Shown here one piece after another: positions 19,164-26,201 of a stretch of DNA of 64,000 nt. Source of the stretch: an uncultured delta proteobacterium (lineage in GTDB: Bacteria; Desulfobacterota; Desulfovibrionia; Desulfovibrionales; Desulfovibrionaceae). Numbering within the stretch: the stretch's first letter is position 1; the number at the start of each line of letters is the position of its first letter. Below the pieces are notes generated by a model. It made no database searches, was not told where the DNA came from, and was given only the letters and a program-made list of their open reading frames with translations. The stretch lies in the NCBI GenBank assembly GCA_900079685.1, contig LT599018.1, forward strand, positions 737,012 through 801,011. The letters run 5' to 3'. Both the position numbers and the translations under genes were made by a program.

Positions 19164-19183
19164 ATCAATGCTGTCCGGTTAAG
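19164..19183. repeat. IS terminal inverted repeat, left
   Basis: Begins ATCAATGCTGTCCGG and matches the reverse complement of 20411-20430 with a single mismatch (T against C at position 16). Confidence 0.9.
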
Positions 19184-20327
19184 CTGCCAAGGATAACAGA
19201 CTGAGGTTATAGAGGTTTTCATTTTTTCGTCGTCGGGGCTTCAGGAGTTCTTCCAGCGAGTCTGTTCCGAGGATGTTCAGTGAGGCGATTTGGAAAAGTT
19301 GCTGCACGGACAGCCCTGTTTTACTCAGGAATTTCTGGTAGGCCAGGAGCAGGTAGACGGTCAGCGCGGTATAAATCTGAATCAATACAGCATTTTCCGT
19401 GTTCCCGACAAAGCTTTTGATGCGTAGATTCTGTTTGATTTCGCGAAAAAAGAGTTCGATTTTCCAGCGTTCTTTGTAAATATCGGCGATGGTGCGGGCG
19501 GACAGGCGAAAGTGATTTGTCAGAAATTCGTAACGCTTGCCTGTTTCGGCGTCCCGGTAGCCGATGCGACGCAGGCGCAAGACTTTTCCCCGGCTGTGCT
19601 TCACTTCGATAATGTGGTCGGAAGTAACCCCGCTTGTGCGGTTCACCGGGCGGCGCTCCAGCAGTTTGTAAACAGCGTTGTCCTTCAGGCGGGTGACGAA
19701 AAAGATGCCATTTTCGAGCAGGGTCTGAAACCAGGGGTAACTGACATAGCCTTTGTCGAAGGTCACGATGGAGCCTTTGGGCAGAGAAAGACTTTTCGCC
19801 ATACGGCTTTCGTGCGTTTTGGCCACATCAACGGTGACAAATGCCGGGATATGACCATCGTGGTCAAGCACTGTGTTCATTTTGACGCCGCCCTTGTTTT
19901 GGCGGAACGTGGCCCAGGGAAACAGCGACAAACACAGGCTGATGGTGGTGGCGTCCATGCTGTAAAGTTTGCATTTGAAATGAAATTTGTGTTTGGAGGC
20001 CTTGGGAACACACAGGCTGTACATGTCGGCAAATAGATCTTTGAAAAAGCCCACAGGCCGGGAGTTGTTGGCATCGGAGAAAGTGGAACGTGCAACGGGA
20101 AAAAGGCCAAAATGATACAGCCTCTTGCCGCAGGCGGCCAAACAGCGCAATCCGTCACGCATGGAGCGCCTTGCTGCAAGCTGGATAAAAGCCATGACCG
20201 TAAACTGTTCCTTAAAGCCGAATTGTCGAGAAGAACGACCTGTTTTATGCCGGGCTTCCAGTTTCTGAAAAACATGTCTGGGAATCAATGATAGCATTTG
20301 AGAAAAGAGTGTATTATGATGGCTCAT
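19179..20327 (-). CDS. IS4-family transposase (DDE)
   Basis: A 382-residue transposase with the three acidic residues of the DDE fold: Asp in SMDATTISL, Asp in TFDKGYVSYPWF and Glu in YKERWKIELFFREIK. The last fits the IS4-family Y-(2)-R-(3)-E-(6)-K signature exactly. An N-terminal region of about 90 residues (SQMLSLIPRHVFQKL..., RSMRDGLRCLAA) resembles the DUF4372 domain of such transposases. I chose the ATG at 20327 because GGAGA lies 8 bases upstream; a second in-frame ATG at 20399 has no such site. The gene reaches into the left terminal repeat. Start region is folded in a hairpin described separately. Confidence 0.93.
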   Translation of the reverse strand: MSHHNTLFSQMLSLIPRHVFQKLEARHKTGRSSRQFGFKEQFTVMAFIQLAARRSMRDGLRCLAACGKRLYHFGLFPVARSTFSDANNSRPVGFFKDLFADMYSLCVPKASKHKFHFKCKLYSMDATTISLCLSLFPWATFRQNKGGVKMNTVLDHDGHIPAFVTVDVAKTHESRMAKSLSLPKGSIVTFDKGYVSYPWFQTLLENGIFFVTRLKDNAVYKLLERRPVNRTSGVTSDHIIEVKHSRGKVLRLRRIGYRDAETGKRYEFLTNHFRLSARTIADIYKERWKIELFFREIKQNLRIKSFVGNTENAVLIQIYTALTVYLLLAYQKFLSKTGLSVQQLFQIASLNILGTDSLEELLKPRRRKNENLYNLSLLSLAA

Positions 20328-20399
20328 GTTCAAAATCTCCTTGGGCTGCAATGGGTTATGCAACTGTTTTGTAGCATAAACCTCGGAGATTTTGAACAT
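20326..20399 (-). promoter_or_regulatory. Fold-back hairpin over the transposase ribosome site and start codon
   Basis: A perfect 15-bp inverted repeat (20326-20340 and 20385-20399) with a 44-base loop. In the transposase mRNA the 3' arm contains GGAGA and the beginning of the ATG, so the two arms would hide the start when transcription comes from outside the element. This resembles protection from read-through expression known in IS10 and IS50. Confidence 0.6.
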
Positions 20400-20492: not shown

Positions 20493-21050
20493 TCAGAACG
20501 GCACGTCGTCCATTCCGCTGGCTTCGGACGGAAAGGCCGGGCCCAGATCTTCCGGTTCGGGATTTCTCGGCTGCTGGCGCTGGGGCGCGCTGCCGCGTCC
20601 TCCGCCTTGCTGGCCGCCGCCATACTGTTTTCCGCCACCGGCTTGTTGCCCGCCGCCGAATTGCTGGTCCCCGCCATATTGCTGGTCCGAAGGCCCGCTC
20701 GCATAGTCGCCCTGCCCCGCCGAACCTTTACGGTCGAGGAATTGCACGCGCTGGGCCTTGATTTCCGTGGTGTATCTGTCCTGGCCCTGCTGGTCCTGCC
20801 ATTTACGGGTCTGCAGGCTCCCCTCCACAAAGACGAGGCTCCCCTTGGCGAGATAGTTGGCGCAGTTTTCCGCCTGGCGCTGGAAAACCACCACCGAATG
20901 CCACTCCGTCCGGTCCACCTTGTTGCCGTCCCGGTCGGTGTAACTTTCATCCGTGGCGATGCGCAGGTTAGCCATGGGCATTCCGGAAGCGGAATACCGT
21001 AATTCGGGGTCGCGGCCCAATCTGCCGATAAGCATCACTTTGTTCAGCAT
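20493..21050 (-). CDS. ssb: Single-stranded DNA-binding protein
   Basis: A 185-residue SSB. The N-terminal 110 residues form the OB fold (MLNKVMLIGRLGRDPELRY at the start, WHSVVVFQRQAE, VEGSLQTRKWQD). A Gly/Gln-rich linker of about 60 residues with QQYGG/QQFGG repeats follows, and the last residues MDDVPF are the conserved acidic tip that recruits replication and repair partners. AGAGGA precedes the ATG. It follows the carboxylase operon on the same strand by 72 bases but is probably also transcribed separately. Confidence 0.96.
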   Translation of the reverse strand: MLNKVMLIGRLGRDPELRYSASGMPMANLRIATDESYTDRDGNKVDRTEWHSVVVFQRQAENCANYLAKGSLVFVEGSLQTRKWQDQQGQDRYTTEIKAQRVQFLDRKGSAGQGDYASGPSDQQYGGDQQFGGGQQAGGGKQYGGGQQGGGRGSAPQRQQPRNPEPEDLGPAFPSEASGMDDVPF

Positions 21051-21122
21051 GATCCTCTCCTCAGGCAGCCGCCATGCGCGCTGCCGACACGGGTGGCAGG
21101 CAAAATCGCCCGTTTTGTCCAG

Positions 21123-21518
21123 TTATGCCAGCTTCTCTTCCAACGAGTCCAGAGTGTCCTCGATCTGGTTGGTCGCGGTGTTCGCGGCCTGCGGCTGCCA
21201 GTCGGCAAGGGCCGCTTCCAGCGTTGCCGCGTTTTTTTCCAGCTCGCGCAACCCGGCTGCCAGTTTACTTTTGACGTCCTTGTCCCAATCGCCCAGCCGG
21301 GATTCTTCCAAAAGCCCTTGCGCGAGTTCCATCACGCCCCGACGGACGGGCTCGGCCTTCACGGGAGGGGCGAAAACCTCGGGGTTCGGCTTCCAGCCGT
21401 CCTGGAAAACCTGCCCTTTCCCGGGCCAGGCAAGCGCGCACAAACGGGGCCAGGAGCGGAATACGTCCTCTTCATTATACGTTGTCACGCTCAACCGGAC
21501 CGTCAATACGCGCCCCAT
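21123..21518 (-). CDS. Hypothetical protein linked to the carboxylase operon
   Basis: A 131-residue soluble protein that starts 3 bases after the carrier-protein stop, so it is probably co-translated with it. The first half has no recognised domain; the second half (about residues 65-131) is helical and heptad-like, ending NQIEDTLDSLEEKLA, which suggests a short coiled coil. I do not recognise a family. Its position as the last gene of an accC-accAD-carrier set makes an accessory role in the carboxylase complex conceivable, but that is inference. Confidence 0.7.
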   Translation of the reverse strand: MGRVLTVRLSVTTYNEEDVFRSWPRLCALAWPGKGQVFQDGWKPNPEVFAPPVKAEPVRRGVMELAQGLLEESRLGDWDKDVKSKLAAGLRELEKNAATLEAALADWQPQAANTATNQIEDTLDSLEEKLA

Positions 21519-21521
21519 GGC

Positions 21522-22172
21522 CTAGTCCTCTTCGCGCCATTCGGTCTGCACGCGCATGACCACATCCTCGATGGCGCTGACCATATCCGGCGGGCACACG
21601 CCGATGAGGGGCTGTCCCGCGTCCATGTTCTCGTTGCGCGAGAAATACACCGCGTAGATGACGCCTTCCGGCCCGGTGTACGCGAGGGGACTTTCGCGCT
21701 TCATGCGCGACATGATGAAAAGGTCCATGCCGTCATAGACGGAAATGGCCTTGGGGCCGGACACGTTGATCTTCACGTCCACGGTCGGGATAAAGTAATA
21801 TTTCGCCCGTTCCGGGGCCGGAAAAAGGTGCAGCGCTTTTTTCAGAATGGCGGAGAGCACTTCCTCGCGGGAGAGGTAGTGGCGCAGCTTCATAAGCTCC
21901 GTTCCCGCCTGGACGAAGGTTCCGGTCAATTCTTCGTGAACGAGTGTCACTTCGCCCTTTTCCGTCGCGTAAATGGGTTTGGGGTTGCGCTCGCGTTCCA
22001 GCGTCGCCAGGAGCGTGCCCTCTTTTTCCTTGTACTGGCCGGAAGGCCCCATGACTTTCGTCCCGGCCTTGATGGCCGGAAACGTCAAAATACCGCTGTG
22101 CGGCGCGGTAACCGTGATTTCCGCATAGGGGGAAGCCTGTATTTCTTCAAGCAGCTTGCTTACGTCCAACAT
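21522..22172 (-). CDS. Biotin carrier-like protein with two hammerhead domains
   Basis: A 216-residue protein downstream of the AccA-AccD fusion. The N-terminal domain (about 15-96) fits a biotinyl/lipoyl fold, but the position of the biotinylated Lys in the AMKM motif is Arg62 in LERERN. The C-terminal domain (about 125-195) also fits the fold: GMDLFIMSRMKRESP followed by GVIYAVYF and GQPLIGV aligns with the carrier motif and places a Lys at 158. Lys158 is therefore the best biotin site, in an unusual RMKR setting. The ATG at 22172 begins MLDVSKLLEE; a longer start lacks a site. No other AMKM motif occurs in the operon. Confidence 0.8.
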   Translation of the reverse strand: MLDVSKLLEEIQASPYAEITVTAPHSGILTFPAIKAGTKVMGPSGQYKEKEGTLLATLERERNPKPIYATEKGEVTLVHEELTGTFVQAGTELMKLRHYLSREEVLSAILKKALHLFPAPERAKYYFIPTVDVKINVSGPKAISVYDGMDLFIMSRMKRESPLAYTGPEGVIYAVYFSRNENMDAGQPLIGVCPPDMVSAIEDVVMRVQTEWREED

Positions 22173-22208
22173 GGTGTATCCTGTGCGCCTCACGGGGAGG
22201 CATTGAGT

Positions 22209-24476
22209 CTATCGGTAATACAGGTTCCGGCCGCCCATGGTGTGCAGCGCCTGGGTCAGGTTGAAGCGCGCTTCCCGGCGGTCCCAGATGCCCTGGATAT
22301 GCCCGCGGGCCAGAGCCTTGTACACGTTATGGTAATGGGGCGGCAGCACCATGCCCGTCGTTTCCGTGATGACGCCCGGACCGGCAAAGCCGACGTTGGC
22401 CGAGCGGATGCCGAACTGGTACGGCGAGCAGCCGAGGAAGCTCGCAATGGGACCGGCGTAGGAATTGGTGTCGTACATGACGACGTACAAGCCCCCGGCA
22501 TCGATGTAGCGGCGGACGGCCATGGTGCAGCGCGGCATCTGGATGACGCCGTTGGTGCCTTCCTGGATGCGGATGCCCGCCGTGCCGTGCACGTAGGCGA
22601 TGAAGGGGTAGCGTTTCCTTCTGGCCCGGGCCGCCGCGCGCAGGAATTTTTCGCCTTCGGCCGCGCCCACGGTGCCGCCGCGGAAGTTGGCCATCAACAT
22701 GGCGACGACCACGCGGATGCCGTTGATGCGCGCTTCAAAGGTCATGCAGCCGGACTTGTGCCCGGTGGCCTTTTTCGCCTGTTCCAGCTTCAGGTCAAAG
22801 CCGGGCATATCCAGGGGGTTGCCCGCCTCGATCTGGGCGTTGAACTCATGGATGGAACCCGGATCGAACACGTTGCTGAGGTACCACTCGTACTCCATGG
22901 GGAAATGGTGCCCGCAGTTGGGGCAAACCCCGGCGAATTCGCCGTACAGGTCGGGCGCCCACAGATCGAGGCAGCCCTGAACCTTGGAGTTGGGGCAGGT
23001 TATGGAACGGTCTTCCTTGGACCGGGGGCTGACGTAGGTCCAGTTGCCGCCGCGCGCGTCCTGTTCGTCCCATTCCGAGAGTTCCGTCAACTGGCGTTCC
23101 GTTTCCTCGGTCTTGCGCTTGGAAAAGCCCGGCAGTTTGCGGAACACCCTGACCAGCGGGCCGAAAAGCCGCTGGGTCATGAACCGCACTTCAGCGTCGA
23201 TATCCTCAAGAGCGTAAGACACGCTCTGTTTGCGCCTGCCCAGGAAGTCATACTTGAAGTGCGAGGCCCAATCCCACCAGAACGACGTGATCTTTTCCCG
23301 CATGCGGGAAACTTTCGGCCGTTCGTCGTGGTGCGCCTGGAGGGAAAGCTTGCGGAACTTGCGGTGGCGTTTGGCCACCAGCTTGTCCAGCTTGCCGCTG
23401 GAAAGGTTCCACCGCACGTGCGAGGTATCGTAATCAATCCCGTCGGCCGGTTTCTTGCGGCGGAATTTCGCCCCCAGGGAACGGAAAAACCCGATGCCGC
23501 GCACGCTGAGCACCACCTCGTCCGTGGCCCGCAGTATTTCCTGGCGCAGGGAACGGAAGAAGTCGTAATGGTAGGGGCGCGCGCCGAGTTCCGGCTCCTG
23601 GATGACGTAGTCCACGTATCCCATGCGGAGGTTGTCTTCCGCCGTGATTTTCATCTGGCTGGCGCACCGCTCGATAAGTTCCGGCGTCGCGCGCTCGCCC
23701 TCGCGCAGGCGGCCTTCAATGGCTGCCGCGCCTTCGGGGGAGATGACGGAATAATACCCGTGCGACAACATGAGGCGCCGGTCCGCAAGGCCGATGGCCT
23801 CCGCGCCGCCGGAGCCGCCCTCGGAAATGACGGCCACGATGGGCACGCGCAGGCTGGACAGCTCGTAAATGTTCTTGGCGATCTGCTGGCCCGCGCCGGG
23901 GGAATCCTCGATGGGGAACGAGCCGGGCGTGAAGATATAGGTATGGATCGGGATATTTTCCGTTTCCGCGATCTTCATGTAATATTGGGCCTTGGCGTTA
24001 CCGAACGGCTTTACCGAGCCGCCGTTGCGGAATTCCTCGCCGTGCCCTTTTTCCTGCCCGATGACCATGACCGACTGGTTGAACACCTTCTTGCCCTGGC
24101 GGCGGGTAATGTACGCGCGGGCAATGACCATGGCGGGGTCTATGGAGTGTTCGTCCTTGCTGCCGATCTCGGTATAGTTGTCATAGACGTTTTCCAGGAT
24201 GTCCCGCAGGCAGATGCGCTGCGGGTGGCGCACGACGCGCACCTTGTCCATGGGCGTCAGGTCGGCTTCAAGCTTGCGTTCAACAAAGTCGAACAAATCC
24301 GCAAGCGTGGTGACGGCCTCGGTCTTTTCCTGGTCGGAAAGCATGGCCTCACGCTGCCGGTAGTCGGCCATTTTCGTTTCGAGCAGGCGCACGTTTTCGT
24401 TATGCTTGCCCGCAAATATATCGCGAATGTAGTTGAGACGTTCGCCAAGTTGTTGCAGTTTCTTTTCTCTATCCAT
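22209..24476 (-). CDS. Acetyl-CoA carboxylase carboxyltransferase, AccA-AccD fusion
   Basis: A 755-residue protein joining both carboxyltransferase subunits. Residues about 75-330 are AccA-like: RAYITRRQGKKV, GSFPIEDSPGAGQQIAKNI, SEGGSGGAEAIGLAD and SPEGAAAI. The C-terminal half is AccD-like, with a zinc ribbon near 480-515 (TCP...GC and CPNCGHH) and the oxyanion segments ANFRGGTVGAAEGEK and GTAGIRIQEGTNGVIQ. The order is alpha then beta, and about 120 basic, helical residues join them. It should transfer CO2 from carboxybiotin to acetyl-CoA for fatty acid synthesis. It lies between accC and the carrier gene. Confidence 0.9.
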   Translation of the reverse strand: MDREKKLQQLGERLNYIRDIFAGKHNENVRLLETKMADYRQREAMLSDQEKTEAVTTLADLFDFVERKLEADLTPMDKVRVVRHPQRICLRDILENVYDNYTEIGSKDEHSIDPAMVIARAYITRRQGKKVFNQSVMVIGQEKGHGEEFRNGGSVKPFGNAKAQYYMKIAETENIPIHTYIFTPGSFPIEDSPGAGQQIAKNIYELSSLRVPIVAVISEGGSGGAEAIGLADRRLMLSHGYYSVISPEGAAAIEGRLREGERATPELIERCASQMKITAEDNLRMGYVDYVIQEPELGARPYHYDFFRSLRQEILRATDEVVLSVRGIGFFRSLGAKFRRKKPADGIDYDTSHVRWNLSSGKLDKLVAKRHRKFRKLSLQAHHDERPKVSRMREKITSFWWDWASHFKYDFLGRRKQSVSYALEDIDAEVRFMTQRLFGPLVRVFRKLPGFSKRKTEETERQLTELSEWDEQDARGGNWTYVSPRSKEDRSITCPNSKVQGCLDLWAPDLYGEFAGVCPNCGHHFPMEYEWYLSNVFDPGSIHEFNAQIEAGNPLDMPGFDLKLEQAKKATGHKSGCMTFEARINGIRVVVAMLMANFRGGTVGAAEGEKFLRAAARARRKRYPFIAYVHGTAGIRIQEGTNGVIQMPRCTMAVRRYIDAGGLYVVMYDTNSYAGPIASFLGCSPYQFGIRSANVGFAGPGVITETTGMVLPPHYHNVYKALARGHIQGIWDRREARFNLTQALHTMGGRNLYYR

Positions 24477-24599
24477 GAGTTTTCCGGTATACGAGCCGCA
24501 AGGGACTCAACTGTATTCCCCGGTCGGGGGCCAGGGGGACCCTGGCAAGATACGGGGCGAACGGCCCCGGTTTTCACAAACGTTGCTTCACCAAAAAAA

Positions 24600-26030
24600 C
24601 TAGAACAGCAAAATCCGGTTGGTCTTTTCCCTGAGAAAGTCCACGTTGGACTTCAGGGCGCCGGCATTGTTGGCGCCCTTGAGCACCATGTTGTCCAGGA
24701 AGGATATGCCCCGCTCCCGCACTTCCGCGAGATCCTTGCCCCAAATGATGCCGAGCGCCAGGTTGGGGTCGAATTCCGTGGGGATATCGTACGCTTCCTT
24801 GGTCGGCACATGGGTATACATGGACAGCCAGTTTTCTTCCTTCCAGGAAAATTTCTCGATCCTGCCGACCCAGGGAGCGAAGGAGCTTTTCGGGTCTTCG
24901 GCGATGATCCGGTACTCGATACCCGTGCCCTCGAACGTGATATCGTCCTGGGTGTACCCCAGGGGAGCGCCAAGCCCCAGGCGGATCTGCTCGGCGATCA
25001 GGTCCACGCCCTTCTGCCCCTTGATGCGGGAAATGGCGGCGGAAACGCCGTTTTCCACCTGGATGCGGGTGTTGACTTCCATCAGGTACGGGCGGCCGTC
25101 ACGGGTGACGATCCATTCCCAGGTGCCGACGTTGTCGTACTTCACCCGTTCCGCCAGGGCCAGGGAGTGGCGGATGATGTCATCCATAAGCTTTTGGGCG
25201 TCAAAGTCATACACTATGTTCTCGGGGTCGAACCCCGGCGCGACCTCAAGGCGTTTTTGCAGGCCCGTGCTCTGGATGGAGCAGTTGCGCGTGCCGAAGT
25301 GCACGATGTTCTTGCCGCCGCGTTCCGCCACGATCTGCACTTCAAGGTGGTTGAAGTCGCGGATGCGCTGCTCGATGAGCACGCCCTCGTCCTTGAACTG
25401 GCGGGCGGCGTAGTTGCGCACGCGCCGGTACACGGACCGGAAAAGATCCGGGTCGTGCACTTCCTCAATGCCCATGCCCCCGCCGCCGGCGGAGGCCTTG
25501 ACCAGCACAAGCGGGTTGGCGATGCCGTGCTCCAGCTGGAATTCGAAAAGGCTGCGCGCGATTTTCTCGGCTTCCATTTCATCGTAAATGGGCCGGTCGG
25601 AACCGGGAACGGTCGGCACTTCAAGGCTGCGGGCCAGGCGCTTGGTGTTGATCTTGTCCCCGAGCTCGCGAATGACCCGCCAGGAAGGGCCGATGAAGAT
25701 CAATTTGCGGTCGCGCTGGGTGACCCGGCGGGCAAAGCGGTAATCCTCGGCGAAAAACCCGTAGCCCGGATGGATTGCGGTTGCGCCCGCGTCGTCGGCC
25801 ACGGCCAGAATTTCGTTGGCATCGTGGTAGGAGGCCACCCGGTACAGGCTTTTGGGCCCGCCGAGCTGCCGCGCCAGAGCGACATGGCCGGAGGCCACGT
25901 CTTCCGCCGTGTGCACGCAGACAAAACCAAGCCCGAGTTTGTGGCAGGCCCGGACGATGCGAACGGCTATCTCGCCCCTGTTCGCCACCAAAACCTTGTG
26001 TGTGGAATCAGTATTTGCGGAAGTACTCAC
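24600..26030 (-). CDS. accC: Biotin carboxylase subunit of acetyl-CoA carboxylase
   Basis: A 476-residue ATP-grasp enzyme that carboxylates carrier-bound biotin. Family motifs are VLVANRGEIAVRIVRAC, AIHPGYGFFAED, VKASAGGGGMGIEEV (the ATP-binding glycine loop), LEVQIVAERGG, GTRNCSIQSTGLQKRLEVAPG and EVNTRIQVENGVSAAI. No biotinyl domain follows at the C-terminus. Start is GTG at 26030 with GAGG 5 bases upstream. It opens the carboxylase operon; the next gene, the AccA-AccD fusion, begins 123 bases later. Confidence 0.94.
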   Translation of the reverse strand: MSTSANTDSTHKVLVANRGEIAVRIVRACHKLGLGFVCVHTAEDVASGHVALARQLGGPKSLYRVASYHDANEILAVADDAGATAIHPGYGFFAEDYRFARRVTQRDRKLIFIGPSWRVIRELGDKINTKRLARSLEVPTVPGSDRPIYDEMEAEKIARSLFEFQLEHGIANPLVLVKASAGGGGMGIEEVHDPDLFRSVYRRVRNYAARQFKDEGVLIEQRIRDFNHLEVQIVAERGGKNIVHFGTRNCSIQSTGLQKRLEVAPGFDPENIVYDFDAQKLMDDIIRHSLALAERVKYDNVGTWEWIVTRDGRPYLMEVNTRIQVENGVSAAISRIKGQKGVDLIAEQIRLGLGAPLGYTQDDITFEGTGIEYRIIAEDPKSSFAPWVGRIEKFSWKEENWLSMYTHVPTKEAYDIPTEFDPNLALGIIWGKDLAEVRERGISFLDNMVLKGANNAGALKSNVDFLREKTNRILLF

Positions 26031-26201
26031 CTGAACCTCGAAAAGCTGGCAACGCCCTGAAGAGGCGTGTGAAAAGTCTCAATATGAAATAATCCGGACA
26101 AGGCGCACCGTGCGCCGTCTTGCGCATCGACCGGGAAGCGCGTTACACTCCGGGCGAAAACAGACTATACCCGTCTCCCCGGCGAATGAGGAGGGAATAA
26201 T

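Follow-up and report, generated by a model that had tools for sequence, protein, structure and literature searches.

Our analysis identifies an AccB-like biotin carrier of 216 amino acids that is built of two hammerhead domains. It is encoded on the minus strand (21522-22172) of a 64,000-nucleotide stretch from an uncultured delta proteobacterium of the Desulfovibrionaceae (hereafter the window). Judged from its sequence and its predicted structure, this protein very probably serves a divergent heteromeric acetyl-CoA carboxylase as its biotin carboxyl carrier subunit, with biotin on Lys158 of the second hammerhead. The putative site in domain 2 is [S/T]-x-M-K-R-[E/D] in place of E-A-M-K-M, and in the window it takes the form SRMKRE (Lys158 codon at 21699-21701, minus strand). 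Neither the AMKM criterion nor the AccB model classifies the carrier as a standard AccB, and its divergence explains why that model fails to find an AccB here. In the textbook view, biotin ligases recognise their target through the AMKM site. A group in which central carboxylases would instead rely on another conserved site, and would have the acceptor in a second domain, offers a natural test of ligase recognition.

Two predicted hammerhead domains

The initial annotation had proposed that the open reading frame holds two biotinyl-like domains, that Arg62 takes the place of the AMKM lysine in the first and that Lys158 takes the place of the carrier lysine in the second. All three proposals are borne out by profile alignments and predicted structures. 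The Pfam Biotin_lipoyl model matches the carrier barely over its cut-off (22.5 versus 22.1 bits; best stretch residues 50-96, in domain 1), and no NCBIfam model matched the carrier itself over cut-off. Profile-profile comparison with nine AMKM/SMKM domains places Arg62 of domain 1 on the biotin lysine with an E-value of 5e-12 and a probability of 97.5% (domain 1, residues 16-99, 21876-22127; Arg62 codon, 21987-21989; both on the minus strand). The same comparison places Lys158 of domain 2 (residues 114-194, 21591-21833, minus strand) on the biotin lysine with an E-value of 9e-6 and a probability of 83%.

The full-length carrier was modelled with AlphaFold2 from an alignment of 22 sequences (mean pLDDT 88.7), and residues 16-97 of that model align with E. 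coli BCCP (1bdo) at a Z of 11.7 and an rmsd of 2.1 over 72 positions (VIA-align). A separate model of residues 100-216, built from 18 sequences (pLDDT 85.4), aligns with 1bdo at an rmsd of 1.9 over 76 positions and with 4hr7 at an rmsd of 1.5 over 72 positions, in both cases with a Z of 8.8, which is slightly above the 7-8 that is typical of the tool for models without clear relatives. We nevertheless regard domain 2 as a hammerhead, because the top rows of a Foldseek search with this model are biotin carrier domains, that is, the right family, and because the sequence profiles agree. Both domains are thus predicted to have the barrel-sandwich (hammerhead) biotinyl fold, including residues 125-195, on whose fold the earlier reading had depended. 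In the full model, domain 1 has its hairpin beta-turn at residues 61-62. That of domain 2 is formed by residues 157-158, with Lys158 at the turn between strands 150-156 and 159-164. Compared directly by profile, the two domains gave no convincing match (E 0.074); a tandem duplication is therefore not established.

Conservation of the putative acceptor site

Relatives were collected from 26 loci in named genomes and from genome searches of the phylum (247 genomes) and of the family Desulfovibrionaceae (149 genomes). The carrier was found in 45 of the former and 147 of the latter, and the start position of its reading frame is a start codon (ATG, GTG or TTG) in the relatives as well. Including that of the window, 89 distinct sequences were read, and Met157-Lys158-Arg159 is invariant in them. 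Position 155 is Ser in 82 sequences, Thr in five, Tyr in one and Ala in one, and position 160 is Glu in 67 and Asp in 22. At position 62 the residues are Arg (55), Lys (13), His (10), Gly (7), Asn (3) and Ser (1).

These counts bear on the question of which domain would carry the biotin. Of the two, domain 1 matches the hammerhead fold better (Z 11.7 versus 8.8) and has a lysine at position 62 in the 13 sequences just mentioned, so that one could place the biotin on domain 1, or on neither domain, and regard the hairpin likeness of domain 2 as coincidental. With no lysine at position 62 in 76 of the 89 sequences and a lysine at position 158 in every one of them, we consider this extremely unlikely. 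In our reading domain 1 keeps its fold without a conserved acceptor and probably has a structural role, and the hairpin tip of domain 2 would bear the biotin on its Lys158. The initial annotation had described the lysine as apparently moved to the second domain. This wording is loose: with a lysine still at position 62 in 13 sequences, domain 1 has rather drifted.

The acc operon

The carrier gene belongs to one operon-like run on the minus strand in the order accC, accA-accD fusion, carrier and an ORF of 131 amino acids without family match (21123-21518). The biotin carboxylase AccC comprises 476 amino acids (24600-26030), and the single-chain carboxyltransferase consists of an AccA-like part (residues 26-321) followed by an AccD-like part (residues 508-747; whole gene 22209-24476). 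AccC and the fusion are clear matches to acetyl-CoA carboxylase models yet remain below the curated cut-offs of those models. In the window's genome the fusion is the sole match of a search for ACCA. The genes for AccC, the fusion and the carrier stand together in 26 of 26 neighbourhoods read and in three more genomes (G251, G255, G282). In the proposed mechanism the biotinylated arm of Lys158 would swing between AccC and the fused AccA-AccD carboxyltransferase, on which an acyl-CoA would presumably serve as substrate.

A homologue of the 131-aa ORF follows the carrier in four of five Desulfovibrionaceae neighbourhoods read and in none of 24 from other families; in 23 of these 24 its place is taken by a second ligase-like gene.

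The window fusion has its AccA part in front, which reverses the order usual in single-chain CoA carboxyltransferases.

Search for another AccB or acceptor

The initial annotation had also left room for the carrier being encoded elsewhere, and suggested a search for a normal AccB. At E<=1e-10 the window's genome yields no match to the AccB model TIGR00531, which speaks for the window protein, but biotin sites of the usual kind do exist in that genome. PF00364 has nine matches over cut-off there, and only two of these loci have an [A/S]MKM biotin site: one encodes a 72-aa AMKM carrier, and in the other an SMKM domain forms the end of an OadA-like protein, with an OadG-like protein encoded next to it. 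It should be kept in mind that PF00364 often misses carriers of the SxMKR kind; the window carrier itself is absent from its matches in this genome. One could accordingly assume that the true carrier of the carboxylase is the 72-aa protein, the OadA-like SMKM domain or, in the relatives, the biotinyl domain of pyruvate carboxylase, and that the window protein is a scaffold only. Both candidates occur in the window's genome, and the ten other Desulfovibrionaceae of the phylum set do have pyruvate carboxylase. However, each of the two candidates has partners of its own, namely the OadA-like/OadG-like context in the case of the SMKM domain, and a MadB-type carboxybiotin decarboxylase and an extra ligase in the case of the 72-aa carrier.

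The assumption is also hard to sustain across the relatives. A DNA pattern for E-[A/S]-M-K-M, which covers Ala and the TCN spellings of Ser and misses other spellings, gave sites in five of the 11 Desulfovibrionaceae of the phylum set. All sites outside the window's genome were read and none is a biotinyl domain, and neither is the third site within the window's genome. By this pattern, no real EAMKM/ESMKM carrier was found in the ten other Desulfovibrionaceae, while an S[I/V]MKQE domain of pyruvate carboxylase is present in all ten. Three further relatives (G251, G255, G282) have the carrier with AccC and the fusion adjacent and one ligase match each, and no pyruvate carboxylase match was found in them. 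G282 has no PF00364 match at E<=0.001, and the single match in G251 at this threshold is the SxMKR carrier itself. The single match in G255 spans profile positions 45-73 only, within a 404-aa frame in which a motif scan (MK followed by Q, R or M) gave no biotin site. In these three genomes the SxMKR carrier thus appears to be the only acceptor, as far as the imperfect PF00364 search can tell. That a ligase is retained where one acceptor is visible provides the strongest indirect support for biotinylation of the carrier, weakened by the carriers that PF00364 misses. Together with the invariance of M-K-R in 89 of 89 sequences, these observations render a carrier encoded elsewhere very unlikely.

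Over the phylum set, the TIGR00531 cut-off is reached in none of the 45 carrier genomes, as opposed to 54 of the 202 others (Fisher p 5e-6, relatedness not corrected). Weaker matches occur in six of the 45. Five of these (G014, G051, G081, G095, G105) lie at the end of frames of about 650 amino acids. The sixth is a 158-aa frame (G126:C19:14931-15323) that matches positions 10-154 of the AccB model with 52.3 bits (cut-off 115.2); judged by its sequence, this frame may encode a further AccB-like carrier alongside the SxMKR carrier of the same genome.

The 72-aa AMKM carrier of the window's genome lies in a cluster on contig C2 (L047, 5321-7834) together with the MadB-type carboxybiotin decarboxylase and the extra divergent biotin ligase; this cluster is a second biotin system in that genome.

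A related motif on pyruvate carboxylase

A biotinyl domain of pyruvate carboxylase was found in 129 of the 149 Desulfovibrionaceae genomes. Among these, 70 loci were read (the 30 best-scoring and 40 picked from lower matches; 12 of the 70 were read with a looser-framed pattern that requires Q, R or M after MK), and the site is S[I/V]MKQE in 69 and AIMKQE in one. Pyruvate carboxylase is a biotin enzyme, and in this family its site is shaped like the SxMKR of the carrier. In all seven g3 genomes, 3.4-3.6 kb separate the ligase gene from the pyruvate carboxylase domain.

Biotin ligases and a second ligase-like protein

A ligase was found with TIGR00121 (E<=1e-5) in all 45 carrier genomes. In the window's genome, a ligase of the Desulfovibrionaceae type (contig C1, outside the window) would probably attach the biotin. 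Outside the Desulfovibrionaceae, 32 of the 34 carrier genomes have a second ligase-like copy (loci L200-L231), and these 32 copies form one side of a branch supported by 100 and 99 in two trees. In 23 genomes the second copy is near the carrier on the same strand, within 176 bases or in overlapping frames in 21 and at 1.1 and 2.2 kb in two. The order accC, accAD, carrier, ligase is seen in 23 of the 26 neighbourhoods, and two of the other three are from Desulfovibrionaceae. In the remaining nine of the 32 the second copy is away from the carrier, on a different contig in seven and distant on the same contig in two (G089, G177).

The second copies are altered at three places, namely a Ser (in STN), a Gln (in KQT) and the KWPND motif, which we take to be residues of biotin contact or catalysis in BirA. 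Aligned with Pyrococcus BPL (1wnl), the Ser of STN falls on Arg and the Gln of KQT on Leu. Across the second copies, Arg stands in place of the Ser in 29 of the 30 ungapped rows, and all 32 have a hydrophobic residue (Leu, Met, Val or Ile) where the Gln would be. KWPND is found in none of them; the site reads KW[VI]ND in 23 and RW[VI]ND in nine, and eight of these nine are not near the carrier. The canonical ligase copies (33/33 ungapped) and the Desulfovibrionaceae-type ligases in the tree (11/11) keep Ser, Gln and KWPND. By family model the second copies nonetheless belong with the biotin protein ligases at E<=1e-5, some of them below the TIGR00121 cut-off. In all five that were scanned in full, TIGR00121 exceeded its cut-off and was outscored by one other biotin ligase model only, and lipoate ligase models were weak.

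An altered pocket in an acc-linked protein raises the question of what group, if any, is attached to the carrier. From sequence, the second ligase-like protein could be a ligase matched to SxMKR, a ligase for another group or a non-catalytic partner. For the carrier, the substitutions listed above would fit a reading in which Lys158 bears a group other than biotin, placed by the acc-linked protein, or in which that protein is a non-catalytic carrier partner. We regard this as unlikely, since the Desulfovibrionaceae keep the same carrier with ligases that are canonical at Ser, Gln and KWPND (11 of 11). Furthermore, the ligases of G255 and G282, where the SxMKR carrier is the only acceptor found, retain these residues too, and two f27 genomes (G026, G157) have a canonical ligase only and still the carrier. 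AccC and the fusion fall by profile into biotin-enzyme families, and the five scanned second copies score best with biotin ligase models rather than with lipoate models. Biotin on Lys158 therefore remains our preferred reading. A wider scenario would make the acc-linked proteins either a separate superfamily branch, charging the SxMKR carrier with something other than plain biotin, or a dedicated non-ligase partner of it. The Desulfovibrionaceae, which lack these proteins, would then use a divergent biotin ligase for the same carrier and for the S[I/V]MKQE pyruvate carboxylase. This scenario seems to us rather unlikely. In the free tree the Desulfovibrionaceae ligases stand apart from the acc-linked branch with weak support, and an AU test did not reject their union with that branch (p 0.712).

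A strict pairing of ligase and motif was considered and rejected, since one ligase occurs with both motifs in five g178 and two f27 genomes. The five g178 genomes (G283, G334, G349, G356, G367), read from 15 g178 survey genomes without a pyruvate carboxylase match, all combine one ligase match and an SxMKR carrier with an EAMKME domain, the latter on a frame of about 610 amino acids. The two f27 genomes (G026, G157) have both kinds of carrier with their one canonical ligase.

Comparison with known systems

The carrier shares with AccB (TIGR00531; E. coli BCCP, 1bdo/4hr7) the predicted hammerhead fold, the lysine at a beta-turn (here the invariant Lys158), an operon with AccC and the carboxyltransferase, and the presumed role as a swinging arm. 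In contrast to AccB it has two hammerheads with the acceptor in the second, carries SRMKRE where the A/V/S-M-K-M motif (EAMKM in AccB) would be expected, and has no TIGR00531 match at the threshold given above.

Variant BCCPs are known from Sulfolobus tokodaii and Aquifex aeolicus, each with a single acceptor domain. Like these, the carrier would have its acceptor lysine in a site other than AMKM, but its residue at -3 is mostly Ser, that at +1 is Arg, and a related motif is present on the pyruvate carboxylase of the same family. According to PMC3048393, AMKM is the usual biotin site, with AMKS in S. tokodaii BCCP and ALKV in A. aeolicus BCCP as exceptions, and E. coli BirA does not biotinylate the S. 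tokodaii site.

The acc-linked proteins match the family model of the biotin protein ligases (TIGR00121; Pyrococcus BPL 1wnl, E. coli BirA 1bia) and align along the catalytic domain; they differ from these ligases in the replaced pocket residues (in 32) and in the loss of the KWPND Lys (in 9/32). Lombard and Moreira 2011 (PMC3199775) give a single BPL or BirA gene per species, but PMC4861984 describes two birA genes for Lactococcus lactis. Two ligases per genome are therefore not new in themselves. Among the matches listed in a search of open-access full texts, nothing was recognised as an SxMKR carrier or as acc-linked second ligases.

Further features of the window

Antisense to the whole acc operon runs an open frame of 1655 amino acids (21093-26060), which is probably a shadow frame of G+C-rich coding DNA. 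An ORF at 19179-20399 resembles, by eye, an IS4-type transposase and lies near an ssb-like gene at 20493-21050.
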